Assembly: GCF_018362775.1 (NCBI RefSeq)
Contig: NZ_JAGYXY010000002.1
Location: 473,035 to 537,034 of the forward strand
Origin: Alistipes montrealensis
Lineage (GTDB): Bacteria > Bacteroidota > Bacteroidia > Bacteroidales > Rikenellaceae
Direction of reading: 5' to 3'
Length of the DNA: 64,000 bases
In this document: positions 33,978 through 51,553 of the stretch, one piece after another
Layout of the letters: the number at the start of each line of letters is the position of its first letter
Numbering within the stretch: the first letter of the stretch is position 1
The notes under the pieces: generated by a model
Told to the model about the DNA's origin: nothing
The model's input: the letters and a program-made list of their open reading frames with translations, nothing else
Databases searched by the model: none
Made by a program: the position numbers and the translations under genes

Positions 33978-36900
33978 GTGGGCAATAGAAACGTCTTTTT
34001 ACTCATTTTTGCAAGTACGGTCCTTACGTGCTGGTGTCCGGGGCTTTTTGCCGGTAATCTGAGAATGATCTCCAGCAGGGAGGGGATCAGCAATAACTCT
34101 ATTCTGTGCCTGAACCAGGACACGGACGGTTATATCTGGCTCGGGACCTGCGAAGGCCTCAATCTGTGGGACGGACAGCGCATGGTCTGCTATCCGCAGG
34201 AAGGCAGCGGGATGAAACCTCTGTCGGGAAACCTGATCGAGAAGATCCAGCCCACCCGGGACCGATACTACTGGCTCCGGACCAATTACGGTCTCGATCT
34301 CATGCACCGGACCAAGGTCGTCGAACAGCACAAGGAGTTTCAGGGAACCTATTTTCTGATCAGCCGGGACAAATCCGAGACGATCGTACTCACCCAGGAC
34401 GGCAGTTTCTACGGCTATTGTGAGGAAACCGCCTCTTTTCAGCGGATTCCGGATGCATTTCGGTTCGATTCGTACCTCACTTCCTGGACCGGAAAGAGCG
34501 ATTCTGTCTTTGTTTTCCGGAAGGACGGAATTTACCGGACGGCTTTCGCGGCCCGGAAACCGGGAGAGCCGTGCAATTTCGGGGGATTCGACCGGGTGCT
34601 GCCGATAGAACTCAGTTATGCCTTTGCAGACAAGGATACGGTGATACTGATCGACGCCAAAGGCGTGTTGTATAGCTTCGATCCGGCGACGGAAGTGCTC
34701 GAATATATCGCGAATATCCGTTCGGAGATCAGTCGGTACGGAATGGTTTCCTATGCGATCCGTTACGGCAACGATTTTCTTGTTTCCTTCCTTTTCGACG
34801 GCGTGACAAAACTTCGTTTTACGCCGGAAAGCCCCCGTAAATATGTCATGGAGCGGTTGGACATCAACTGCGGCGTGTTCTGCCTGCTCAGGGATGCGAA
34901 GCAGGATATCGTTTGGATCGGCAGCGACGGGCAGGGATTGTTCATGTATGCGAACGGCGAGGTGTCGTTCCATTCGTACAGCTACGACAAACTGCCTTAC
35001 AACCTTTCCAAACCGGTCCGGAGCCTGCTGCTCGATTCGCGGGGCACGCTGTGGTTTGCGACGAAAGGGGAAGGTATCATTCAGATTCCCGGATTCTCCA
35101 CGGCCGACAAGCCGACGGAGATCGTCCAGATAAACGGTCCGGGGTCGGGGCTTGCCGATCACGCCGTGTTCGCTTTGGAGGAGAGCTCCCGGGGGCTTGT
35201 GTGGATCGGGTCCGAAGGGGCCGGGATCAATTACAAGTCATTCGCCGGGAACGAAATCCGGACGCTGGGCGGAGATGTGCCTCCGGACCTGCGTTATGTG
35301 CACGCCATTCGGGAGAGCGACAGGGATACGTTGTGGGTCGCTACGGTGGGGTGCGGCGTCTTCCGGCTGGTTATCGGCGACAAGGGCGGTATTCCTTATG
35401 TCCGGGAGTGGAAGAAACTGGATTTCGGGAAAGCGCTGGAGAACAAGAACTTCTTTTTCACCTTGTTCGAAGATGTGGACCATACGCTCTGGATCGGCAA
35501 TCGCGGAGGCGGGCTGGTCCATTACTTTCCCGACAGCGACACTTGTACCGTCACCACGTTCGACGACTCGCGGGCGGAGATAGCCAACGATGTCTGGGCC
35601 ATCCTTCGTGCCAAAGACGGGAAACTCTGGATCGGGACGAGTTGGGGACTGCTCCAGCTCGAAGACGACGGAACCGTGCGGGAAACTCCCATCCGCAATA
35701 TCATTCACGGGATACTCGAAGACAGCGAAGGAAAACTCTTCCTTACTACGAACAGCGGGCTCGTAAGGTACGACCCGCAAACCTCCTACCAGGCGAAATA
35801 CGGGTATTCGTACGGGATATACACCATTGAATACAGCGACGGGGCCGCCTATAAGGACCCTCGGAGCAATACGCTGTTCTTCGGGGGAACCAACGGATTC
35901 GTCGTTATGGAGCAGACCCGCTACAAGGCCGAACCGTTCTATCCCGAACTGCTTTTCCGGAGCGTGCGGATCGACGACCGGCTGATTCCTTTCGAAGATG
36001 CGGTCCGCGAAGACAGTACGTTGGTCATCGGTCCCCGTGAAAGGCTCTACGATGTGGGTGTAATCGCCCTCGACTACATCAACGGCAGCAATTATGTCTA
36101 TCTCTACAAGATCGAAGAGGCGGAGAACCGATGGATGGAATCCCCTTCGGAGATCCTGTTCGCGGAAAAGAATCCCGGGAAATACCGGTTGAACGTACGA
36201 TACAAGAATATTATCACGGGAGATACCAGTCCGGTCAAATCCCTGACGATCATCATCAAGGCCCCCTGGTACAGCAGCCGGTTCGCCAAATGCGCCTATC
36301 TGCTCCTGTTTTTGCTTACCACTGCTCTGGCCGGCCGGCATCTGTATAAAAGACGCTGGCGGAAAAGGGCGGCGGCCATGGAACGGCTGGAAGCCAGCCG
36401 GAAAGAAGAGGCTCTCGATTCGCAGCTCCACCTGATGGAGAACCTCGCCCAGCAGATGGCTGTTCCGGTATTCATGGTGTCCGTACCCTGCCAGCAGATT
36501 TTAGAATACCCCGAATCCGATGATTACATCCGGATGCGCATGAAAAGGATTCTCCAGCAGAGCGCGAAGTTGGGCAATATCATCCACATGCTGCATGATT
36601 TCAGGGAGTCGAGCGAGTCGAACAAGGTAAACGTGAAAATATTCTCCGTCACGGAATACATGATGGAGATCACGAAGAGTTACGTGTCGTTGGCGGAAGA
36701 GAAGGGGATTGCGCTCAGGGTCGACGTGCCCCAGGGGCTTCTTTGGACGAGTGACCCGAAACGGGTTGCCGCCATAACGGATATGATGATGACCAATGCC
36801 TTCCTCCATGTGGTCCGGAAGGGGCGGATCGGGTTCGAAATAACGTCCGACGGGGACCGGTTCGTTATCCGGCTCGAAGTCGAAGGCAAATGGATCGGTG

Positions 36901-41084: not shown

Positions 41085-41470
41085 AATTATTAGTTTGGTT
41101 GGTAAATAAATTTATCTATAATTTGATAATTTATAAAACTTATTACAAATATAGCTACTTTCACGAAAATCGGGCTTGTTTTTCCATAAAATTTAGAAAA
41201 AGTGCTCCGGGGTCTTGACAAGGGGGTATCCGGTGTTGTATATTTGCCGTACAATTCACAGCCAGCCGTCGCGGCGGTCAAGTTATCAACATGTAGAAAC
41301 AGCTCTGTTTCTGAAAATTGTGAATTGTTATTTCTGCTTATCAACAAGTTTTCAACCCGTTGTTAACAACCCGGACGCATTTCGGGTCCGGATGTGCCGT
41401 CCCTGTTTCTTTCTCCTTTTCTGCCGGGCAGGCCTCTCTTACCCATGTCATCATCTCTAAAAACATTTCC
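41085..41470. other. AT-rich intergenic region with DnaA-box-like sites and inverted repeats
   Basis: This 386-base gap separates leftward GH27 from the rightward phage-derived block. CAAATATA at 41146-41153 is an exact -7 box for GH27 on the minus strand. TTATCAACA, one base off the DnaA box TTATCCACA, occurs near 41284 and again near 41338, beside GTTTTCAAC and the palindrome GTTGTTAACAAC. AGAAACAG and CTGTTTCT near 41296-41313 form a hairpin. ACAATTCAC near 41250 is repeated inverted as GTGAATTGT near 41322. No convincing ORF is in it. Confidence 0.5.
41215..41246 (+). promoter_or_regulatory. Promoter of the phage-derived block
   Basis: TTG at 41215-41217, a 21-base spacer and TATATTTG at 41239-41246 give a good Bacteroidota promoter. 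The leader to the first gene would be about 220 bases and carries the inverted repeats. Confidence 0.6.
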
Positions 41471-42442
41471 ATGCAATTCACACAAATTCCGCAACAGTAC
41501 GCCCCGCTCGGCGGGGAACTCCGCTATGCCGTCAGCCGGGAGGAGGCCGGGAACATCGACATCCGGATTGCCGGAGCCGCAGACGCTGCGCTGCTGGGCG
41601 CAAAACGGTTTGCGGCCGTAACCGAAGCCGCATTCGACGCGGCGCCCTACCTGCGCCGCCAACTCCGGTTCGTCCCTGCAACGGGTAAAACCGGGTTTTA
41701 TTCCACCGGGGGAAGGACCGTCTCGGTCGTTGTCGAAGCCTCGGAAACGGACGACGGGACAATCGCGGCAACATCCCCGGCGCGTACGTTCCTGCCGGGC
41801 GTCGAGGTTCCCGCAGGGCCGTGCCTGCGCACCTCGATGCCTCTGAACCGGCTGATTCCGGAGGGCGCGTGCGACGAACTGACATTGTTAACCTCCGGAG
41901 CCTGTGCCGTGACGGTGACGGCCGAAGCCGGGGATTCTACGACGGCCGAAAGCTACCGCACGGCTGAATCCGGACTGCACCTTTTCCGCCTCGACACGCG
42001 CGATTTCCAGGGTGCGGAGTGCATAACGGTGGATGCCGGGGCGTGCGGAACGGCAGTCTATTCGGTAATGCCGGCTGTCGAGGGTGCGGTCCGGCTGGCA
42101 TGGCGCAGCAGTGCAGGGTCGGTCGAACACTATACCTTCCCTGTGGTGAGGACGACGACGGTCCGTGCCGGGAGGCTGGAGGCCGAAGGCCCGGAAGGGC
42201 GTATGGTCGTCGCGGCGGACGCGGAATGCGAGATGCTGCTCGTGTCGGCCTACGAGGCCTGCGCTGTGCTGGAAGCCCTGGCCGAACTGATGACGGCTCC
42301 GGAGGTGTGGATCGCCGGGGAGAGCGGTTACACGCCGGTAAGCGTTGCGACCGGCGAGGCGGTGGTACGCCGCCATGGCTCGCTGTGTTGCCTGGAGGTC
42401 GCCGTTCGTCCTAAACACAAAATCCGCATGCCATGGAACTGA
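41471..42442 (+). CDS. Unknown phage-block protein, beta-rich, first gene
   Basis: A 323-residue soluble protein that I do not recognise. Start chosen at ATG 41471 (MQFTQIPQQYAPLGG); a TTG at 41360 in frame is weaker because its extra 37 residues look non-coding. The sequence is rich in Ala, Val, Thr and Glu with many predicted strands and no signal peptide. It overlaps the next gene by 10 bases and so is made with it. The tight coupling to a tail-like protein suggests a minor tail or fibre-associated subunit; that is inference. Confidence 0.55.
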   Translation: MQFTQIPQQYAPLGGELRYAVSREEAGNIDIRIAGAADAALLGAKRFAAVTEAAFDAAPYLRRQLRFVPATGKTGFYSTGGRTVSVVVEASETDDGTIAATSPARTFLPGVEVPAGPCLRTSMPLNRLIPEGACDELTLLTSGACAVTVTAEAGDSTTAESYRTAESGLHLFRLDTRDFQGAECITVDAGACGTAVYSVMPAVEGAVRLAWRSSAGSVEHYTFPVVRTTTVRAGRLEAEGPEGRMVVAADAECEMLLVSAYEACAVLEALAELMTAPEVWIAGESGYTPVSVATGEAVVRRHGSLCCLEVAVRPKHKIRMPWN

Positions 42443-44793
42443 GAATCGACGGAAAAGTTTGCGACCTGGGGCCGGAGAGCGTCGCTGTGCCCGGCTATGA
42501 TGCCGCGAAATCGGCCGATGTGGAGGCCTGCCGCGAAGGGCGGTCGCTGAAAATCACGATCCCCGCAACCCCGCGCAACGATGGCCTCGTGGGATTCGCC
42601 TGCGACCCGCACGCCGCAGGACAATTCAACGGTGCGCTCCATACGGCGGAATTGTCGGCCGAAGGAGCGGTGCTGATCGGGGGAACGGTGCGGCTGCTGG
42701 CCGCCTCGGGAGAAGGCTATACGCTCGAAATCCGCGACGGAGGGGCCGGATGGGCTGAAAATGCCGCACGGAACATGTTCAATGCGCTGGGCGTGACGTG
42801 GAACGCTCAGTTGACGCCGACGATGATCGTCGACAGTTGGACCGACGACTCCCCGGTGAAGTTCTTCCCCATCCACCGCGACGAATACCGGCAGCAGAAC
42901 AGCTCCTCGGACCTGCTTCCGGCGGAACACCTGCTTTCGGTGGAGGATTACCATCCGTTTCTGCACATCGCCACGCTTGCCGACCGGATTTTCCGTGAGG
43001 CGGGCTACGAGGTCAGGAGCCGGTTTTTCGATTCGGCGTTCTTCCAGTCGCTCTACATGAGCGGCGCTTACTCCTCGCGAGACACTACGGCAGCGGCCGG
43101 ACGCATGGGTTTTTCGGCGCGGCGGCTGGCCCCGGCAACGGCCTCGGCCAATGAATTGGGACGGGTTGCGGCCAACCCCAAGACCATCCTCAACTCCGTG
43201 GGCAACATCGTCGACACGGCCACGCCCCAGAGCGTCGATGCCGACGGCGAAGCGGTCAGCGGACTTTTCAACAACGGCAATTGTTTCTCGACGGACAACG
43301 GTAAGATCGTCTTCACGCCGCCGGCCGAAATAAACGCCGGATTCGAGTACTGCCTGAAATACACCACCGCCCACCGTATCGTTTCGCGGACGCGGCTCAA
43401 AGGGTTCGACACGGTGTACCTCGGTCCCGGGGCGGAATTCGTATTCGGGTTGGCAAACCGCTATAAGGACCTCCGCGATGCTATCGTGCCGAATTTCGGC
43501 TACCTCGCACTGGTCTTCGACCACACTGCCGGGACGCAGTACCGCCTGACGTATACCCGCAACGGCGTGGCGGGGACGACGTGGACCGACTTCGCGGCAC
43601 GTTCGGCGCAGGTCGCCACCCCGGCGTCGGGGACCGTCGCCGACCCCGTGCTGCTGGTTCGCAGCGGTTCGCAGTGGGTTGCGTATCCGGGCGACTGGGC
43701 GCTCTACAACGGTTACATCGGCGAGACGGGCGAAACGACCGTCGAGGTGCGGCTCCGTACGGCCGCGGAGACCGTTTCGCCGGCGTCGCCCAAGTATTTC
43801 AACCAGATTTACTTCGCCGGAGCGGAGCCCGGGATGTCGCTGACCCTGCATAAGGAGTGCTCGCTGCGGCCGCGGTTCCTCTCGGCCCCGGGATTCGGGG
43901 CGCGGATCGCATTCGCCGACGTGGCGCAACTCCGCATCCGGCAGTCGGCCCTGCTCGAAGCCCTCGCGCATCTGTTCAACCTGCGGTTTTACACCGAAGA
44001 GGCGACCCGAAGGGTCTGGATCGAGCCGGAAGAGGCGTTTTTCGGAGCAGGTCCCGAAGCGGACTGGAGCGGTAAAACGGATTTTTCGCAGCCCGTCGAG
44101 CGGGTGCAGATCGCCCCGGAGATTCACGAAGTGCGGACGTGGCGGTATCAGGACGGCGACGGTGCGGTGACGCGCTTCGATGCCGGGCAGGAAATCCCGC
44201 TGGGGGCATGGAGTTTCGCGGCGGATTCGTATGCCGCGGTGCAGGGCGAAAAGGTGCTGCGCAACCCGCTGTTCAGCCCTTCGCTCAACAGCGTGGGGCA
44301 CTATCTCAATGCGCCTTCGGCGCTGATCCTGCAGGTCGGCGACCGTGACGACGCGGAGGAGGACGGCACTAATTTTACGCCCCGCATTGTCCGCTACGCC
44401 GGGATACATCCGCTGCCCGGAGGCGAACGGTGGGGCTATCCGTCGGGGCGGGCCGAATATCCGCTCGCGGCGTTCCACTTTGCGGGGGATGCTTCCGAAG
44501 CGGGGTTCACGCTTTGTTTCGAGGACCGCGACGGGCTGGAAGGGCTGCACCGTTATTACGACCGGCAGGTGCGCCGGGAGGCTGTCCGCGAACGGATTGT
44601 CCTTTCGCTCCGGCTCGCGCCCCATGAGTTCGAAGCGCTCCTGACGCCCGGTACGGGTGCGCCGGATATCCGCTCGGTTTTTCGCATCGACACCGGGGCG
44701 GGTGTAGTTCGGGCCGTACTGCACGCCGTCGGCGGCTACGACCCCGGGAAAGCCTCGGTGCGCTGCACGTTCGACCGCCTTTCGGAGGACTGA
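42433..44793 (+). CDS. Large tail-hub-like protein of the phage-derived block
   Basis: A 786-residue protein without signal peptide or membrane helix. It has long beta-rich stretches, a middle region with LHIATLADRIFREAGYEV and SALLEALAHLFNLRFYTEEATRRVWIEPE, and a C-terminal FEDRDGLEGLHRYYDRQVRRE segment. The AL-HLF-L-FY-DE-TRRVWIEP pattern is like phage baseplate hub proteins, which open a folded structure at the tail tip. I cannot place it in a named family. It overlaps both neighbours (10 bases and 1 base), so the first three genes of the block are translationally coupled. Confidence 0.55.
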   Translation: MELRIDGKVCDLGPESVAVPGYDAAKSADVEACREGRSLKITIPATPRNDGLVGFACDPHAAGQFNGALHTAELSAEGAVLIGGTVRLLAASGEGYTLEIRDGGAGWAENAARNMFNALGVTWNAQLTPTMIVDSWTDDSPVKFFPIHRDEYRQQNSSSDLLPAEHLLSVEDYHPFLHIATLADRIFREAGYEVRSRFFDSAFFQSLYMSGAYSSRDTTAAAGRMGFSARRLAPATASANELGRVAANPKTILNSVGNIVDTATPQSVDADGEAVSGLFNNGNCFSTDNGKIVFTPPAEINAGFEYCLKYTTAHRIVSRTRLKGFDTVYLGPGAEFVFGLANRYKDLRDAIVPNFGYLALVFDHTAGTQYRLTYTRNGVAGTTWTDFAARSAQVATPASGTVADPVLLVRSGSQWVAYPGDWALYNGYIGETGETTVEVRLRTAAETVSPASPKYFNQIYFAGAEPGMSLTLHKECSLRPRFLSAPGFGARIAFADVAQLRIRQSALLEALAHLFNLRFYTEEATRRVWIEPEEAFFGAGPEADWSGKTDFSQPVERVQIAPEIHEVRTWRYQDGDGAVTRFDAGQEIPLGAWSFAADSYAAVQGEKVLRNPLFSPSLNSVGHYLNAPSALILQVGDRDDAEEDGTNFTPRIVRYAGIHPLPGGERWGYPSGRAEYPLAAFHFAGDASEAGFTLCFEDRDGLEGLHRYYDRQVRREAVRERIVLSLRLAPHEFEALLTPGTGAPDIRSVFRIDTGAGVVRAVLHAVGGYDPGKASVRCTFDRLSED

Positions 44794-45053
44794 TGACGCG
44801 TCACGACGAACTGTTGGCCGAAGCGGTGCTTCGGGAGGTCCGGGGGCTTACGACCCGGCAGGCGGTATTGCGGTTGTTCGAATTGGGGCTGGTCAGCCGC
44901 CGGGGGTGTGAACAGCGCGCTATCCGCGACGAAATCGGGCGGCTCGAAAGGGAGGGCATGCCCCGCTGCGAAGCCTTCGAGGTCACAGCCGGGAAACTCT
45001 GCTGCTCTTACGAAAAGGTGCGCAACGCATTTTATAACACTTACAAACATTAA
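44793..45053 (+). CDS. Small HTH-like protein of the phage-derived block
   Basis: An 86-residue basic protein, ATG at 44793 sharing one base with the TGA of the previous gene. It has two helical segments, and AFEVTAGKLCCSYEKVRNAFY looks like a helix-turn-helix. It could be a regulator or a small DNA-binding packaging factor; the sequence does not decide. It is followed after 2 bases by the protease gene. Confidence 0.6.
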   Translation: MTRHDELLAEAVLREVRGLTTRQAVLRLFELGLVSRRGCEQRAIRDEIGRLEREGMPRCEAFEVTAGKLCCSYEKVRNAFYNTYKH

Positions 45054-45055
45054 TC

Positions 45056-45928
45056 ATGAAATCGGAAATTCAAATTAACAACACCGCCGGAGCCTGCCAG
45101 ATCGACATCGAGGGGACTATCGGCGTGCCCGAGGAGTGGCAGTTCGACGAACCCGAAGCCCGGGTGGCGACCTACGAGCGGTTTCGCGACGCTTTGCGCC
45201 GCATTGCGGAGATCGAAGCCCCGGAGGTCGTCGTGAACATACGCTCGACGGGCGGCGACGTGAACGACGCGCTGCTGATCCACGATGCGCTCGCCGCGCT
45301 TCCGGCGCGAATCACCACCCGCTGTTACGGTTACACGGCATCGGCGGCAACGATCATCGCCCAGGCGGCTTCCGAAGGGTGTCGCGAACTGTCGGCCAAC
45401 GCCCTCTACCTGATCCATACGGCCATTTGTTCGACCGAGGGCAATGCCGCCGAGATTGCCGGAAAGATCGACCTGCTGCACCAGACGGATGCGCGTATCG
45501 CCGCGGTTTATGCCGCCCGTTCGGGCCGTCCGGCTGCGGAGTTCGGGGCCCTGATGGCCGAGAACAACGGCAACGGCCGCTGGCTTGCGCCCGAAGAGGC
45601 CGTTGCGGCTGGGCTGGCCGACAGGGTAATAGACGCTGCGGAGCGGCCTGCGCCCTCGCTGGCGCAGAATATTGCCCGGGGATGGGACCGCCTGCTGGCC
45701 AACATCGGCCTGCGGCCCGGAGCCGTGTTGCCCGCCGACCGCAACGTCCTCCACTTCGACGAAGAGGTCCAGGCCCTGCGGCGCCGTTCGGCCATCGCCG
45801 CCGACGAAGCCCGCCGCCAGGCCGCGCCGACGCGTACGCAATCCCGGGAGGATCCCTCCTATGGCGATACGGTCCGGTCGGCGAACGAACGCGCCTATGC
45901 CGAAGACGCAAAACGCTTCCGCTGTTGA
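45056..45928 (+). CDS. ClpP-type phage head maturation protease
   Basis: A 290-residue protein whose first 200 residues match the ClpP/crotonase-like S14 fold used by many phages to process capsid proteins. Visible are NIRSTGGDVNDALLIHDAL, the nucleophile Ser96 in GYTASAATI and His121 in YLIHTA. The catalytic Asp expected just before the WLAPEEAVAAGLAD block is not obvious: that stretch reads NNGNGRW. The C-terminal 85 residues, Arg- and Ala-rich, may act as scaffold, as in other phage protease fusions. It precedes the capsid gene. Confidence 0.8.
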   Translation: MKSEIQINNTAGACQIDIEGTIGVPEEWQFDEPEARVATYERFRDALRRIAEIEAPEVVVNIRSTGGDVNDALLIHDALAALPARITTRCYGYTASAATIIAQAASEGCRELSANALYLIHTAICSTEGNAAEIAGKIDLLHQTDARIAAVYAARSGRPAAEFGALMAENNGNGRWLAPEEAVAAGLADRVIDAAERPAPSLAQNIARGWDRLLANIGLRPGAVLPADRNVLHFDEEVQALRRRSAIAADEARRQAAPTRTQSREDPSYGDTVRSANERAYAEDAKRFRC

Positions 45929-45936
45929 CAGCGGAA

Positions 45937-46106
45937 ACGCAATTAAAAATTAAAAATGAAGAATTTAAAATTGCCGAAGGGGAAGCCTCCCTTATCAAAG
46001 GGAGGTTTGGAGGGATTGTCGACATAAAAATGGAAGTCAGGCAACATCCGTCCTCAACGGTAAAACGAACAACCAAATTCAACAAACATTTAAAAACACA
46101 ACATCC
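45937..46106. other. AT-rich spacer between protease and capsid genes with hairpin
   Basis: In contrast to its GC-rich neighbours, this 178-base gap begins with ATTAAAAATTAAAAATGAAG and contains CCTCCCTT-ATCAA-AGGGAGG near 45986-46006, a hairpin, then a GGAGGGATTGTCGAC stretch. It looks like an inserted short repeat of the kind scattered in Bacteroidota genomes. No ORF is convincing. It may carry the capsid gene's promoter or attenuator. Confidence 0.45.
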
Positions 46107-47084
46107 ATGACTTATCTTGAAAATTCGAAACAGTACACCGGTTCCGACCTCGAAAACATTTTCTTCCGCCCGATGCTGACCGGAGAGTCGGCGCAGGAAT
46201 TGGGCGTGCGCGTACTCTACAACATGCCCCAGCCCACGCACATACAACTTTGGGACGGGCAGCGCAACATCCTCCAAAAGTTCACCTCCGCGGGCTGGAC
46301 CGGAGGCAACCCGGCCACCAAGTACGAAAAGACGGTCAACCTCAGCCGGGTGAAAGCCGAACTGGGATTCTCGGCCGCCGACTACTTCTCGATGGTCTAC
46401 GAAAAGATCACCGCGCTGGCCAACGTCAATATGGACGACCTCTCGGGGACGGAACTCGAACAGGCCGAAACGGCGCTCTTCAAGCAGGCGCTCGCCGAGA
46501 ATATCCGCGTCACGATGTGGCTCGGCAACACCGCCTCCGCGACGGGTTACAATACTTTCGACGGTTTCCTCAAGCCGATCAACAGCCTGGCCGGTGACGA
46601 GGCCATTTACTGCTTTGCCTACCAGGCGTCGGAGCTCGCGGACCCGGCCTGTGCGGTCGAGGTGTTCGACAAACTGTGGACCGGGGCCGATCCCCGTGTC
46701 CGCGACCTCAAGGCCGACGGGCAGCTGGTTTATTTCGTGTCGTCGGACATTTATCACCTTTACGAGAAATACCTCGATTCGAAGGGTGCGGACGCTGCCT
46801 ATACCGATGCGATGAACGGCCGCCGGGCGTTGGCCTATCACGGAATCCCCGTCGTGGACGTACGGCTGGGCAGTTACCTCGGCGCAACCACGTTCCGCCA
46901 GTCGTTCGCCCTGCTCACCGACCGCCGCAACCTCGTCCTGGCCGTCAATACGGCCGACATGCCCGGCAACGAAGTGCGCATGTGGTATAACCCCGACGAG
47001 ATGGAGAACCGCCAGCGTGCAGTCTTCATGGCCGGCAGCGAAATCCTCGACGAGGCGCTGATCTCCTTTGCCTACAAGCAGTAA
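46107..47084 (+). CDS. Phage major capsid-like protein
   Basis: A 325-residue protein. The gene is placed between protease and portal, and the sequence has the pattern of HK97-fold capsid proteins of Bacteroidota phages: an N-terminal helix, WTGGNPATKYEKTVNLSRVKAEL, a helical middle with DDLSGTELEQAETALFKQAL, and the C-terminal GIPVVDVRLGSYLGA followed by TDRRNLVLAVNTAD. No signal peptide. The fold call is from pattern and context, not from a clear motif. A strong hairpin follows the gene. Confidence 0.7.
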   Translation: MTYLENSKQYTGSDLENIFFRPMLTGESAQELGVRVLYNMPQPTHIQLWDGQRNILQKFTSAGWTGGNPATKYEKTVNLSRVKAELGFSAADYFSMVYEKITALANVNMDDLSGTELEQAETALFKQALAENIRVTMWLGNTASATGYNTFDGFLKPINSLAGDEAIYCFAYQASELADPACAVEVFDKLWTGADPRVRDLKADGQLVYFVSSDIYHLYEKYLDSKGADAAYTDAMNGRRALAYHGIPVVDVRLGSYLGATTFRQSFALLTDRRNLVLAVNTADMPGNEVRMWYNPDEMENRQRAVFMAGSEILDEALISFAYKQ

Positions 47085-47098
47085 AAACCCGGGGACGT

Positions 47099-47128
47099 GC
47101 ATCCGCAGGAGTCTTTTCCTGCGGATGC
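47099..47128 (+). terminator. Hairpin after the capsid gene
   Basis: GCATCCGCAGGA and TCCTGCGGATGC form a perfect 12-base stem around GTCTTT, 15 bases past the capsid stop. There is no T-run, so it may partly end or stabilise the capsid message rather than stop it fully. Confidence 0.65.
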
Positions 47129-47155
47129 CGGACTCACTCAAACCCGAAAAACGCC

Positions 47156-48382
47156 ATGAGCAAAACGAAAAAAATCAAAACCGCCGTGGGGGTCGCCGAC
47201 CGCACGGACCCTTACTTCGCACTGGGGGCGTCGCGGGTCGACAGCGATAAATTCTGGCGCTGGGGCGACGATAACCTCTTTCCGGCGGCGCTGGCGCTGA
47301 TGGCCCGGCGTTCGACGACCCACCGGCGTATCATCAACGACAAGGCCGATTACATCTCGGGCAAGGGATTTACATGCGACGAGGCCCGGCAGCCGCTGCT
47401 GGCCGAATTTGTTCGGCGCGTCAACGGCAGCGGCGAGAGCCTGAGGCAGGTGCTGGGCAAACTGGCTTTCGACAAGTCGCTGTTCGGCAATGCCTTCCTC
47501 GAAGCGGTCACCGACCCCGGACACACCTATTTGTCGCTCTACCACCAGGACGCCTCGCGCTGCCGCGTGGCCCGCGACTCGAAACACATCCTCCTGCATC
47601 ACGACTGGGCGGCATTCAGGCCCGCCGAAGCGCGGTCACTGCCGCTCTATCCCGATTTCGAAGTGCAGGACGACGGCACGCTGCGCTCTATGATCCACTA
47701 CAAGGATTACGAACCCATGTTCGAACACTACGGCGTGCCGCCCTATATCGCGGGGTTCAGCGTTTCGGCGATCGCCTGGAAGACCGACCGCTGGAATATC
47801 TCGCGGCTCGACAATTCGTTCCAGTTGTCGGGCGTGATGATGCTCGACTCGTCGGTGGACAACGAGGCCGAAGCCGAACGCATCGTGCGGCTGGCTGAAC
47901 AGAAGTTCGCCGGGAATCCCGGGCAGGTGATGTTCGTCATCCGGGACGGCGGCGAGGACGACAATTCGCGTTTCATCCCCATTGCCGCACAGAACGAGGG
48001 CGACTGGCAGGCGCTGCACGAACAGGCCGTCGGGGACATCGTCGTGGCCCACTCGTGGTTCCGGACGCTGAGCGGGCTGGACTACGCGGCGGGCTTCAGC
48101 GCCGAGCGCATCCTCCACGAGTACGAGGTGGCGCTCAACACGGTGATTCTGGCCGAGCAGGCCGAACTGACCGAGCCGATCCGGGCCCTTGTGGCTTCGG
48201 TTCTGGGACTCGACACCGTCTCGCTGCAAATCGTCAACCGTCCGCCGACCCGTTCGAAACCCATCTACATGAAGGTCTGGGAGGCCCGCAAGGCCGACGG
48301 GCTCGACTACGATCCGGAGGACCCGAAACAACAGGCCTTTTTATCCGAAATTACGAAGTACAATATCAAGAGTATCGAATAA
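47156..48382 (+). CDS. Phage portal protein
   Basis: A 408-residue protein resembling phage portals, the ring through which DNA enters the head. Typical points are the N-terminal WRWGDDNLFPAALALM, the RIINDKADYISGKGF segment, GNAFLEAV, and SGLDYAAGFSAERILHEYEVALNTVILAEQAELTEPIRAL. Portals are usually encoded before protease and capsid; here it comes after them. No terminase gene is nearby to drive packaging through it. Length is normal for Bacteroidota phages. Confidence 0.78.
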   Translation: MSKTKKIKTAVGVADRTDPYFALGASRVDSDKFWRWGDDNLFPAALALMARRSTTHRRIINDKADYISGKGFTCDEARQPLLAEFVRRVNGSGESLRQVLGKLAFDKSLFGNAFLEAVTDPGHTYLSLYHQDASRCRVARDSKHILLHHDWAAFRPAEARSLPLYPDFEVQDDGTLRSMIHYKDYEPMFEHYGVPPYIAGFSVSAIAWKTDRWNISRLDNSFQLSGVMMLDSSVDNEAEAERIVRLAEQKFAGNPGQVMFVIRDGGEDDNSRFIPIAAQNEGDWQALHEQAVGDIVVAHSWFRTLSGLDYAAGFSAERILHEYEVALNTVILAEQAELTEPIRALVASVLGLDTVSLQIVNRPPTRSKPIYMKVWEARKADGLDYDPEDPKQQAFLSEITKYNIKSIE

Positions 48383-48659
48383 ACGTATAGTTTTCGCGGG
48401 ATCGAATGTCGTTCTTGCGGTGTACCGCCGCGGGGCATTCTGCCGCTTTTGGTGGCAAAAGCGGCGCAAAACCATCCGCATGTCGCTTTCGCGGGATCAT
48501 CCTCCGGCCCGCGCTGAGCGGGCGCAGTAAGATCGAGCCTTTACAGCCTCCCGCTCCGGGCGCGCGGCCCCTCGGACGATCTTTTTCCGCTCCAAGCGAG
48601 AATGCGGAATTATGTTACCGTAGAACCGGTACGCTTTTCACTTTTAACCTTCCACCTTT
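48383..48659. other. GC-rich intergenic element with hairpin and repeated words
   Basis: The 277-base gap has no convincing gene. GCCGCTTTTG and CAAAAGCGGC (48442-48451, 48456-48465) make a perfect 10-base stem with a 4-base loop. The words TTCGCGGGATC occur twice (near 48391 and 48488). The style is that of the scattered intergenic repeats of Bacteroidota. An AT-rich stretch just before 48660 supplies the translation start of the next gene. Confidence 0.45.
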
Positions 48660-49133
48660 ATGAACACGTTAATCACCCCTTTACAGGTCCTGCGCCTTGC
48701 CTTCGGCGTCGGGGAATACCTGCCGCCCGAAACCATCACGGAAGCCGACATCGCCGCCGCCGAGCAGCGTTACATCGTTCCGGTCATCGGGCGGGCGCTT
48801 TACGAAAAACTTCTCGGCGGCTCCTATGCCGGTTTCCGGACCGGATACCTCGCGGCCCCGGCCGCCCTCTTCACGCGTGTATCCGTCCAGCCGCGGCTCG
48901 ACATCCGCACCGGACAGTGCGGCACGACGGCCCCGAAATCCGCCTATACCCAGCCGGCCGGGGACACGGCCCGCCGACACCTGCGGCGCGCTCTGCTGGC
49001 ACAGGCCCGGACGCTGCTGCGCCGTGCTGCCGAACACCTCTGCGCCCATGGGACGGAGTTCCCGGAATACGACCCCGAAAAAGACATCTTCAACCGCTGT
49101 ACGACCGATGGAGGCTTTGTTCAGGTTCGTTAG
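48660..49133 (+). CDS. DUF6712-like phage head-tail adaptor protein
   Basis: A 157-residue protein beginning MNTLITPLQVLRLAF, followed by LPPETITEADIAAAEQRYIVPVIG and RVSVQPRLDIRTGQCGT, ending with FPEYDPEKDIFNRCTTDGGFVQVR. This pattern matches the DUF6712 family found next to portals and capsids in Bacteroidota phages and thought to join head to tail. It overlaps the holin gene by 26 bases. Confidence 0.65.
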   Translation: MNTLITPLQVLRLAFGVGEYLPPETITEADIAAAEQRYIVPVIGRALYEKLLGGSYAGFRTGYLAAPAALFTRVSVQPRLDIRTGQCGTTAPKSAYTQPAGDTARRHLRRALLAQARTLLRRAAEHLCAHGTEFPEYDPEKDIFNRCTTDGGFVQVR

Positions 49134-49533
49134 CGGCGCGGCGGCAGGGATTGCCGCGCTGTTCGCGCCGATCGGGCCGCTGGTGGCCACGACCGTCGTC
49201 TTCATCGGCGTCGACTTCCTTTCGGGGGTGGCCGCCGACCGCGCCGCGGCCCTCCGCGAAGGGCGCGCTTGGTATTTCGAGAGTTGCAAGGCCTGGCGCA
49301 CGGTGCTCAAACTCACGCTTGCGGTCACGGCGATCTCGATGGCGTGGCTGATCGACAGTTGCGTCCTGGATTTCATGCCGTTGAACCTGGCCCGGCTCCT
49401 CACGGGATTCACCTGCGGCGTGGAGCTGTGGTCGTTTCTCGAAAACGCCGCACAACTTTCCGACGCCCCGTTGTTCCGCTGGCTGCGCCGTTATGTGCGC
49501 CGCCGTATCCGGAAGGAGGCAGGCGATGAGTAG
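49108..49533 (+). CDS. Phage holin family protein
   Basis: A 141-residue protein starting at ATG 49108, in a different frame from the adaptor gene it overlaps. Four hydrophobic segments (about 6 to 30, 50 to 70, 75 to 90, 98 to 115) and a basic tail (RWLRRYVRRRIRKE) fit the Phage_holin_4 type. Such proteins open the inner membrane at a set time to let endolysin reach the wall. The next gene encodes a P5-like lysin. Confidence 0.8.
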   Translation: MEALFRFVSGAAAGIAALFAPIGPLVATTVVFIGVDFLSGVAADRAAALREGRAWYFESCKAWRTVLKLTLAVTAISMAWLIDSCVLDFMPLNLARLLTGFTCGVELWSFLENAAQLSDAPLFRWLRRYVRRRIRKEAGDE

Positions 49534-49573
49534 GGGGTTGGTGAACTGTAACCGACGCAGCTGGCGAGAGCAA

Positions 49574-49589
49574 AGGTTGCTTGCAACCT
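49574..49589 (+). repeat. Inverted repeat between holin and lysin genes
   Basis: AGGTTGC and GCAACCT form a perfect 7-base stem around TT, 40 bases after the holin stop. A further short CGGTTTTTTACCG sequence follows near 49612. Confidence 0.5.
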
Positions 49590-49638
49590 CTGCCGAGTTG
49601 CAAGGAGGAAACGGTTTTTTACCGCTAAAAAACAAAAT

Positions 49639-50040
49639 ATGGCAAGAGGATTAAAAAACCGTAATCCGGGGAATATCCGGCAGTCGAAGGTCCGCTACAA
49701 AGGCGAGGTGTGGCCTTCGCGCGATCCGGCCTTCAAGCAGTTCGAATCCCTCGCATGGGGCTACCGGGCTGTCTTCATGCTGCTGCACACTTACCGGATT
49801 CGTCATGGACTGCGGACTGTCCGCGGAATGATTTCCCGATGGGCTCCGCCGTCGGAGAACCACACCGAAGCCTACATCCGCGCCGTGACCGCCGATACGG
49901 GCATCGGGCCCGACGAACCGGTCGATACGTTGGATCCGGCGACGATGATTCCCCTTGCTGCTGCCATTTCCCGCGTGGAAAACGGTGTCGTAGCGGACCG
50001 GGACGAAATCGGGCGCGGCTGGGCGCTGTTTATCGGCTGA
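49639..50040 (+). CDS. P5-like virion lysin / structural protein
   Basis: A 133-residue protein starting MARGLKNRNPGNIRQS, with WGYRAVFMLLHTY and the C-terminal VENGVVADRDEIGRGWALF. This is the pattern of proteins annotated as structural protein P5, seen in Bacteroidota prophages and probably a small lysozyme-like virion enzyme acting on peptidoglycan. Its position after a holin supports a lysis role. Activity is not shown by any catalytic motif I can name. Confidence 0.6.
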   Translation: MARGLKNRNPGNIRQSKVRYKGEVWPSRDPAFKQFESLAWGYRAVFMLLHTYRIRHGLRTVRGMISRWAPPSENHTEAYIRAVTADTGIGPDEPVDTLDPATMIPLAAAISRVENGVVADRDEIGRGWALFIG

Positions 50041-50074: not shown

Positions 50075-51553
50075 ATGAAGATTTCCCGCCTGTTCGCGCG
50101 GCTCGACCGCATGCCGATGCTCAGGATTCTCGTGCCTTTCGCCGCGGGAATCGCCCTGGCTGGCCGCTATGTATTGCCCCTGTGGTTTCTCGCAGGGGCT
50201 TTCGTATCGGCGGGGCTCGTGGCGCTGTTGCTGCGCTCGTCGGCCGCCACGGCGGCGATGATCGTCACGGCGGGATTTGCCGCGGCGCAGCTTCGCGTGC
50301 CCGAGCCCACTGTCCCGCGCGGCGTGCATACGGCCTATGAAATCGAGGTCGAGGGATTTCCTGCCGACCGGGGGCGTTACCTCTCCGCCGATGCGTCGGT
50401 CGCCGCATGGCGCAGTCCTGTGGACGGGCATTGGCATGCCTCGGACGCCCGTATCAGGCTTTATGCCGATTCGCTGACGGAGTTACACCCCGGGGAACGT
50501 ATCCGCTGCCGGGGTACGGTGAGGCCGCTGCGGGGCGGGGCGGAGAGCTACCGCCTGCTCATGGAGCGGCGGGGGTATGCCGGAACCCTGTGGATCGCGG
50601 AACAGACGATTCTCGAACGGCTGCCGGGGCGGCACGCGGGCCTGCACCGGGCGGCTGTCGAACGGCTCTCCCGGCTGCCGATGGAGCCGCAGGCCGCGGC
50701 GGTCGTCGAGGCCATGGCGGCGGGCGAGCGGCGGGGCATTACGCCCGAACTCCGTGCGGCGTACTCCCGGAGCGGGTTGTCGCACCTGCTGGCCGTATCG
50801 GGCCTGCATACAGGGATCGTTTTCGTGTTGGTAAACCTTGCGCTGTGGTGGCTGCCCCTGCTCCGGCGGGGACATCTCCTGCGCAATGTGCTGGCGGCGG
50901 GGGCCGTGTGGCTCTTCGTCGCGGCGGCGGGATTTCCGCCCAGCGCCGTCCGGGCCGCCGTGATGTGCACCGTGTTGCAGGCAGCATTGGCCTCGGCGTC
51001 GGAATACGTCGGACTGAATGCCCTGGCCGCGGCCGGATTCGGCATGCTGGTCTGGAATCCCAACTGGCTGGGAGACATCAGCTTCCAACTTTCGTTCATT
51101 GCCGTGGCGGCTATTCTCGCCTGGGGCGTGCCGCTCTGCCGCCGCTGCCGCACCCGGTGGAAGGCGCTGAACGTCGTGATCGACGCCTACCTGATCGGCC
51201 TGGCGGCCACGCTCGCCACGGCGCCGCTCGTCTCGCACACCTTCGGTGTCGTGCCGCTGGCCGGACTGGCGGTCAATCCGCTGGCCATTGCGCTGGCCGG
51301 GGTCGTGGTGTGCGGCGGCGCGTTGTGGATGCTCCTGCCCGTCGGAATCCTCGCGCCCGTATTCGGGTTTGTCACGGGAACTGCCGCCGGGTGGATCAAT
51401 GCGCTGGCCTGTTTGACCGCTTCGTTGCCCGGAGGTGCTGCCGACCACACCCTTGGCGGGTGGCAGACGGCGGCTGTTTATGCCGTTTTCGCACTTGCAA
51501 CCGTCGCGGTGTGGAGCACCGAACCGAAAAAAAGCCTACCTTTGCGGATGTGA
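50075..51553 (+). CDS. comEC: ComEC/Rec2-family DNA uptake protein, short form
   Basis: A 492-residue polytopic inner-membrane protein. After two or three helices, residues about 90 to 195 are an OB-like periplasmic domain (the DUF4131 region). The Competence channel domain follows, with GLSHLLAVSGLHTG and FPPSAVRAAVMCTV, the family signatures. The C-terminal metallo-beta-lactamase-like nuclease domain of long ComEC is absent, as is usual in Bacteroidota. ComEC forms the channel that moves single-stranded DNA into the cytoplasm. The stop overlaps the next start (GTGA). Confidence 0.88.
   Translation: MKISRLFARLDRMPMLRILVPFAAGIALAGRYVLPLWFLAGAFVSAGLVALLLRSSAATAAMIVTAGFAAAQLRVPEPTVPRGVHTAYEIEVEGFPADRGRYLSADASVAAWRSPVDGHWHASDARIRLYADSLTELHPGERIRCRGTVRPLRGGAESYRLLMERRGYAGTLWIAEQTILERLPGRHAGLHRAAVERLSRLPMEPQAAAVVEAMAAGERRGITPELRAAYSRSGLSHLLAVSGLHTGIVFVLVNLALWWLPLLRRGHLLRNVLAAGAVWLFVAAAGFPPSAVRAAVMCTVLQAALASASEYVGLNALAAAGFGMLVWNPNWLGDISFQLSFIAVAAILAWGVPLCRRCRTRWKALNVVIDAYLIGLAATLATAPLVSHTFGVVPLAGLAVNPLAIALAGVVVCGGALWMLLPVGILAPVFGFVTGTAAGWINALACLTASLPGGAADHTLGGWQTAAVYAVFALATVAVWSTEPKKSLPLRM

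Follow-up and report, generated by a model that had tools for sequence, protein, structure and literature searches.

GTA-like packaging has been described in gut Bacillota (PMC12946183, main text), where the two-operon gene transfer agent (GTA) of Faecalibacterium prausnitzii, FpGTA, was demonstrated by its particles and packaged DNA, with no identifiable tail in micrographs and with genes for a holin and an endolysin. A two-operon design with lysis genes and no visible tail is therefore workable. Here, a nine-gene, phage-derived block of Alistipes montrealensis (Rikenellaceae) was analysed, located at 41471-50040 of a 64,000-nucleotide stretch, hereafter the window (GCF_018362775.1, NZ_JAGYXY010000002.1, positions 473,035-537,034 of the forward strand). 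Together with a large terminase subunit (TerL) encoded on another contig, the block probably specifies a two-locus, tail-reduced, GTA-like particle that would be filled by TerL and released by lysis. More plausibly than otherwise, the block is one half of a domesticated Rikenellaceae phage element, mainly inherited with the host: it would provide structure and lysis, and an S24 repressor, a 95-amino-acid protein and TerL would be the packaging and control half.

The likeness to FpGTA (PMC12946183, main text) concerns two separate operons or loci, capsid and portal genes, holin and endolysin genes and a gut commensal host, and extends to baseplate, fibre or receptor-binding proteins and to the lack of an identifiable tail. 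However, TerL of FpGTA is encoded with the capsid genes, and its baseplate and lysis genes form the second operon, whereas here TerL accompanies the repressor and the head genes accompany the lysis genes. FpGTA is known from particles and packaged DNA but the Rikenellaceae element from genes alone, and the likeness is drawn at the level of design. As in RcGTA and the Caulobacter GTA, CcGTA (PMC9662315, PMC9632790, main texts), a phage-derived cluster is inherited with the host. The Caulobacter terminase, portal and capsid genes, unlike those of A. montrealensis, share one main locus. A further parallel is that the Caulobacter GTA is under the control of a repressor, RogA, which combines a helix-turn-helix (HTH) with an S24-like domain; RogA is without the catalytic residues and acts through GafYZ (PMC9632790, main text). 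A small terminase without a DNA-binding domain is a further GTA feature (PMC11841831, main text). The main texts of PMC9662315 and PMC11841831 gave no hit for the stem "Bacteroid", and literature searches, judged by title and abstract start, yielded neither a described GTA of the Bacteroidota nor a published description of the Rikenellaceae element, with most subscription papers and all bioRxiv preprints outside the coverage.

The two loci and their conservation

The nine-gene block was confirmed, with all nine plus-strand open reading frames (ORFs) of the preliminary description present. Profiling of the nine proteins against Pfam and PHROG, supplemented by profile alignment and structure prediction, gave the following identities.

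g1, 41471..42442, plus strand: 323 amino acids, beta-rich; a relative adjoins the hub of a related prophage (hhalign probability 98.9 to L080:210-1127)
g2, 42433..44793, plus strand: 786 amino acids; central tail or baseplate hub fold (predicted), with an inserted C1q/TNF-like domain at about residues 219-485
g3, 44793..45053, plus strand: 86 amino acids; no Pfam or PHROG match
g4, 45056..45928, plus strand: ClpP-type head maturation protease (PF00574 1.6e-24, phrog_94 1.7e-37)
g5, 46107..47084, plus strand: major capsid protein (phrog_1623 8.1e-10)
g6, 47156..48382, plus strand: portal protein (PF04860 6.2e-10, phrog_11226 9.7e-20)
g7, 48660..49133, plus strand: DUF6712 protein (PF20459 2.1e-6); adaptor by position only
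g8, 49108..49533, plus strand: holin, Phage_holin_4_1 (PF05105 2.7e-10)
g9, 49639..50040, plus strand: endolysin (phrog_873 4.5e-45)

The earlier names of protease, capsid, portal, holin and lysin are thus borne out by profile matches, and with holin and endolysin the block carries the genes for release by lysis. For the adaptor the family match stands and the role follows from position; of the two proteins called tail-like, g2 is a hub by predicted fold and the fold matches of g1 are not decisive. Neither g1, g2 nor g3 has a significant Pfam or PHROG match, and the label "HTH-like" for g3 could not be upheld. Core segments of the protease, presumably with catalytic roles, are conserved in 36 sequences; the WYNPD..ENRQRA segment of the capsid protein is invariant in 23 aligned sequences. 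The G+C fraction per kb is 0.54-0.66 in the block and overlaps that of the rest of the window (0.53-0.68), in agreement with the host-like composition noted before. No integrase or terminase was detected among the nine block proteins or among ten flanking proteins of host types, of which the four upstream begin at 34065 and the six downstream extend to 57045, and no replication or integration gene among the block proteins by Pfam or PHROG. The absence of an integrase described previously holds for these 19 proteins, and that of a terminase holds at the locus but not in the genome.

One phrog_38 TerL (E 7.1e-85; PF03237 6.6e-8) is present in the same genome at G000:C7:573100-574602, on a contig other than that of the block, so that, as in a GTA, the genome has a packaging terminase of its own and the suggested search for a terminase elsewhere was successful. 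Terminase_3 (PF04466), also considered as the terminase, has no match in this genome. Upstream of TerL are the 95-amino-acid protein and then a divergent 223-amino-acid protein with HTH and Peptidase_S24 domains (PF00717 2.1e-12). The surrounding genes were called host-type; Pfam analysis of three gave KduI, nitronate monooxygenase and one without a match. An XRE-S24 repressor adjoins TerL at 38 of 39 other loci (18/19 and 20/20 in two sets), the sole exception, L254, being a second TerL of G014 with 43% identity, and the 95-amino-acid protein is beside TerL at 36 of the 39 (17/19 and 19/20). At L236:10972-11256 this protein, which has no Pfam match, lies between repressor and TerL, and its relatives carry the motifs PVWWEF and NDFSF. 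A TerL segment is invariant in 50 aligned sequences, repeats included, and a Ser/Lys region of the repressor is conserved in 45, repeats likewise included; the former is presumably ATP-binding, and the latter presumably has the role usual for such a region.

A portal homologue was found in 59 of 61 same-genus genomes, including all 26 with a completeness of 90% or more and no more than 5% contamination, and in 144 of 150 family genomes (104/108 at this quality; 14 of 17 genera). TerL follows a similar distribution, with phrog_38 matches in 58/61 genus genomes (25/26 of high quality) and an orthologue in 143 of those 150 genomes from the family (104/108 of high quality). Portal and TerL are conserved together over 14 genera, and both are absent from four genomes that make up genera g7, g8 and g17; no other genus lacks the portal, and none lacks TerL. 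In an order-wide draw, in which the families of most non-matching genomes are not listed, the portal was detected in 12 of 295 genomes: the genome itself, three other family genomes, which are close, and 8 of the remaining 291, at no more than 40% identity. The portal counts show the block to be kept in relatives, and its chromosomal place is near-constant: where 4 kb or more precede g1, corA lies upstream and divergent in 32 of 33 loci. Neither outcome that would have refuted the preliminary description, absence or variable placing in close strains or an integrase and terminase just outside, was seen in the portal counts, at corA or among the ten flanking genes scanned.

Gene order was examined at 80 genome-contig loci, the best 80 of 285 encoding stretches in a named-contig scan, using ORFs anchored by tblastn. 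Their titles name Alistipes or Rikenellaceae, except for one Bacteroidales bacterium. At the 59 loci long enough to contain the nine genes, g1, g2 and g4-g7 were found in every case, the holin and the lysin at 50 loci apiece and g3 at 35; the full set of nine was found at 29. The block is beyond chance, as the order of the genes found is kept in 59/59 of these loci. Phage-derived head genes thus stand in the host chromosome and are inherited with the host, as in GTAs, with conflict among some supported tree splits.

The distance between the two loci varies. In genera g5 and g10, the TerL gene precedes the portal gene by 2.2-3.0 kb on the same strand in four of six genomes, the other two being fragmented assemblies with portal and TerL on separate contigs. 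In G086 (genus g15), some 4 kb, including three other ORFs, separate the repressor, the 95-amino-acid gene and TerL from the first gene of the block. Since TerL adjoins or lies near the block in some genera, one ancestral element seems to have been split into block and TerL locus. Within the genus of the window, the halves are 0.11 (G048), 0.33 (G161), 0.66 (G131), 2.0 (G115) and 2.6 Mb (G126) apart on one contig, measured along the contig and perhaps closer the other way round if the molecule is circular. For 40 genomes and one prophage, with no host-gene control tree, portal and TerL distances were correlated (Mantel r 0.78), and none of 2000 permutations was as high (highest 0.39). Inheritance with the host plus some unclear or exchanged history appears to fit these trees best.

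Ratios of nonsynonymous to synonymous substitution (dN/dS) were obtained by simple Nei-Gojobori counting against the window gene for related pairs with dS < 2.5. Median values in the block were 0.132 for the portal, 0.158 for the lysin, 0.177 for the holin, 0.185 for the protease, 0.197 for g3, 0.226 for g2, 0.232 for the capsid, 0.311 for g1 and 0.314 for the DUF6712 protein. At the TerL locus they were 0.081 for the repressor, 0.255 for the 95-amino-acid protein and 0.145 for TerL (27, 23 and 31 pairs, including repeated genomes and a few second terminases), and in flanking host genes 0.066 (corA), 0.142 (yihY), 0.178 (kdsC), 0.222 (proC) and 0.258 (comEC). These sequence comparisons point to purifying selection on block and TerL locus, the exact strength of which is not given by such counts; for capsid and portal (0.23 and 0.13), this was the check proposed in the preliminary description. 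At least 80% of full length is retained in 79/80 portals and 79/79 capsids. g2 falls below 80% in 5/72, four of the five at contig starts. An inner portal stop occurs in L025, on the same contig as the short portal L181, and in L083; at five further loci checked the stop is terminal or absent. In L117, g2 and the protease are shortened, and in G105 the portal is split, with two stops.

Tail genes, predicted folds and regulatory sequences

A fuller relative indicates which genes the block is without. G006 is the only genome of 61 with a second full-length portal, which belongs to a prophage (G006:C31, covered by L090 and L080) and is 49-52% identical to that of the block. The prophage order is repressor, reverse transcriptase, TerS (small terminase subunit), TerL, g1 and g2 relatives, tape measure, 82-amino-acid gene, protease, capsid, 171-amino-acid gene, portal, adaptor and holin. 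The block resembles it in the order of TerL, g1/g2 relatives, small gene, protease, capsid, portal, adaptor and holin, but the prophage has in addition TerS, a tape measure, a repressor and the nearby reverse transcriptase. The last (L090:14200-15477, phrog_1423 6.1e-53) is perhaps a diversity-generating system. Between g2 and the protease, the gap does not exceed 792 bp in 72 genome-contig loci or 982 bp in 25 others, versus 3037 bp in the prophage; there is no room for a tape measure in the Rikenellaceae blocks, and its absence from the locus, noted earlier, is confirmed. A search of the genome itself gave no tape-measure relative, a negative that carries little weight for so variable a protein. 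A short ORF with a shared end is present in this gap in 7 of 131 sequences searched, five of these seven having trained the profile; by eye, these ORFs resemble the C-terminus of the prophage tape measure. RcGTA and CcGTA have a tail.

Two further genes are variably present, the 171-amino-acid gene between capsid and portal and one of about 137 amino acids before g1. Among 59 genome-contig loci with enough sequence, both are found in 27 and neither in 32. The window is without both, and the 171-amino-acid family occurs in 26/61 genus genomes and not in that of the window. In another set (L051-L089, of which L072 is cut and L080 and L084 are prophages), 12 loci have both, L065, L073 and L083 have only the gene before g1, and L081 (G006) has only that between capsid and portal. 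The proposal that the two are always lost together fails on these four loci. Both are kept in L112 and L131, close to the window with portal identities of 85% and 81%, and therefore the loss was not one clean event, or the genes came back. The names tail tube for the 171-amino-acid gene and tail terminator for the other were set aside as guesses from position, with no informative PHROG or PDB sequence match.

The g2 model (predicted local distance difference test score, pLDDT, 91.2) aligns with the central hubs of phage baseplates and of contractile systems in VIA structural alignment, with Z 13.2 over 309 residues and a root mean square deviation (rmsd) of 4.6 to 8fqc_C1, and Z 12.0 to the phage Mu hub 9ki1_G. 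Its alignment with the prophage protein has an hhalign probability of 100. For the inserted domain, the matches are the trimer heads of C1q/TNF-like proteins, at Z of about 8-9, and the knob of a phage spike, at Z 9.9. By Foldseek, only one match is below 0.001 (3cdd_C, 3.4e-4, TM-score 0.16 by query length), followed by unrelated beta-rich viral and TNF-like chains. From the model, g2 is predicted to be a tail hub, on the basis of the VIA alignment and not of Foldseek. For g1 (pLDDT 94.6) the matches are to immunoglobulin-like and complement domains (Z 7-10, mostly with large rmsd) and, by Foldseek, to monocin tail-tube chains (7.3e-4). The profiles of g1 and of the capsid protein have no sequence match in the PDB.

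Two features precede g1 on the same strand.

Candidate block promoter, 41215..41246, plus strand: TTGACAAGGGGGTAT ... TATATTTG
Two TTATCAACA sites in the block leader, 41283-41291 and 41338-41346, plus strand: starts 55 bp apart

The promoter boxes are presumably of the Bacteroidota -33/-7 type. TTGACAA...TATATTTG is present upstream of g1 in 50/66 loci, as the best match within 900 bp and with no shuffle control, and the full 15-mer and box are unchanged in 21/66. A stricter pattern has a single match in the genome and none in the reversed control. The promoter scan scored 11 of 12 at the block, where three sites were found in the region compared with 2.1 expected. The leader sites, of the form TTATCMACA, are ones we take to be DnaA-box-like. 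Upstream of g1, 41 TTATCMACA sites occur in 61 regions, the window included, against a mean of 0.42 and a maximum of 3 in 100 shuffles; one or more are present in 29 regions and two or more in 12, and in six of these 12 the two are spaced by 55 or 56 bp. Before comEC, yihY, trmMT, kdsC, g7 and g5 there are 0 to 2 sites each, and none in 19 repressor-side regions. The 17 sites before corA in 47 loci may reflect overlap of that region with the block leader at loci where the intervening gene is absent. A looser DnaA-box-like count over 400 bp gave a site in 24/63 loci.

Proposed sequence of events and rival explanations

From these genes we infer an induction signal, repressor control of the block, packaging, release and delivery. 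DNA damage or starvation would relieve the repressor, TerL would be made and transcription of the block would start at its own promoter. A head would then be built on the portal by the protease and the capsid protein, and TerL would fill it, mostly with host DNA, given that neither locus shows a gene for self-replication or excision. It is this packaging step that the conserved TerL appears to support. Subsequently, the adaptor and the hub g2, with g1, would close the head without a tape-measured tail, and holin and endolysin would lyse the producer, so that particles are released and their DNA is handed to kin. If the element works as proposed, an abundant gut family has an inherited machine for exchanging chromosomal DNA. 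The loci also form a natural tail-reduction series, with no tape measure where measured and two genes variably present, in which the minimum parts for DNA delivery could be tested. A bolder version can be put forward only tentatively: that this is the first GTA of the Bacteroidota, family-wide and in two loci, in which some lineages have no remaining tail genes, a hub on the head delivers host DNA, and control is by an SOS-type repressor with DnaA-linked regulation of the structural genes.

Several points weigh against a two-locus, TerL-filled GTA. The phrog_38 family is common in phages and was also matched in 6/14 control genomes, and five same-genus draft assemblies have one half, either the portal only (G137, G043, G032) or TerL only (G093, G132). 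The portal and TerL trees share 17/38 splits, with 14 conflicting pairs of supported splits that by reading are mostly deep. No TerS was identified, the 95-amino-acid protein beside TerL has no Pfam match, and a search by eye found no operator common to repressor locus and block. The tape measure is missing at the locus and two genes of relatives are missing in the window, leaving delivery unexplained, and particle, packaged DNA and transfer are proposed from genes alone. In the gut survey of PMC12946183, 23 of 25 GTA events are in Ruminococcaceae, Oscillospiraceae and Christensenellaceae, and its main text names no Rikenellaceae among them; there the stem "Rikenell" appears once, where Rikenellaceae are abundant in total DNA.

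Other readings of the same genes were considered. An active temperate prophage would carry its terminase and integrase together with a full tail as a single mobile element, which is not what was found, because the block has no room for a tape measure, a near-constant place beside corA, an unlinked TerL and no integrase among the 19 proteins scanned. A tailocin or contractile injection system would have a tail without head genes; here capsid, portal and head protease are all present. There is a smaller, though appreciable, chance that the domesticated capsid and lysis machine serves a role other than gene transfer, such as the killing of neighbouring cells or hub-mediated delivery of protein, TerL being kept for head maturation or stability. 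The missing room for a tape measure, the lack of a 171-amino-acid family copy in the genome and the C1q/TNF-like domain inserted in the hub, a fold also seen in the phage spike protein of the same match list, would all suit such a machine, but TerL is conserved with the portal over 14 genera with its ATP-binding segment kept, and the block proteins gave no match to a toxin family, though g1, g2 and g3 matched nothing.

It is rather unlikely that the two loci package specific DNA or another mobile element, as a helper-dependent satellite or as the helper. The near-constant chromosomal place, the largely shared inheritance of portal and TerL and the separation of the halves by 0.11 to 2.6 Mb in five same-genus genomes speak against this arrangement, to which the absence of replication or integration genes from the block proteins and a full related prophage in the genus would lend themselves. 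Slow decay of an old defective prophage is already disfavoured and highly improbable. Tail genes are indeed missing, holin and lysin were each not found in 9/59 loci with room, and the lesions of L117, L025, L083 and G105 are of the expected kind; however, the block medians of dN/dS (0.13-0.31) compare with 0.07-0.26 in flanking host genes, portals and capsids are nearly all close to full length, and the promoter is conserved. The preliminary description had left a maintained remnant, a GTA-like particle and a lysis device side by side. Given the conserved TerL and S24 repressor elsewhere, a decaying remnant or a pure lysis device is less likely, and family-wide conservation, purifying selection and the conserved TerL favour the maintained, GTA-like element.

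Neighbouring genes and related sequences

Upstream of the block, the proteins scanned are a two-component regulator, CorA, a menaquinone-biosynthesis-like protein and an alpha-galactosidase, and downstream a ComEC-type competence protein, a methyltransferase, BrkB/YihY, a DUF2520 oxidoreductase, a HAD hydrolase and a polysaccharide exporter. ARAGORN detected no tRNA in the window. The comEC-type gene (50075-51553, PF03772 2e-47) directly follows the lysin gene. A link to competence through comEC is not argued: among 68 loci that continue for 5 kb beyond the portal, 25 have comEC directly downstream, and it was not found there in L051 and L052, the pair with the highest portal identity.

In L069, a locus of G080 (genus g5), the protease relative is downstream of portal and adaptor and not before the capsid, and TerL is just upstream of the capsid gene. 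A distant phage-like cluster, L084 in G115, has portal and capsid relatives of 22-24% identity. Parts of the block are also present in two human faecal virome scaffolds, L277 (MT838736.1) and MT838805.1, which are unannotated, the former being marked unverified; these sequences could be packaged DNA or host contamination. Finally, block genes with portal identities of 62-81% occur on eight IMG/VR contigs of 4.4 to 12.9 kb (L182-L189). These may be host fragments filed as viruses, which suggests that such clusters can enter databases under that label.

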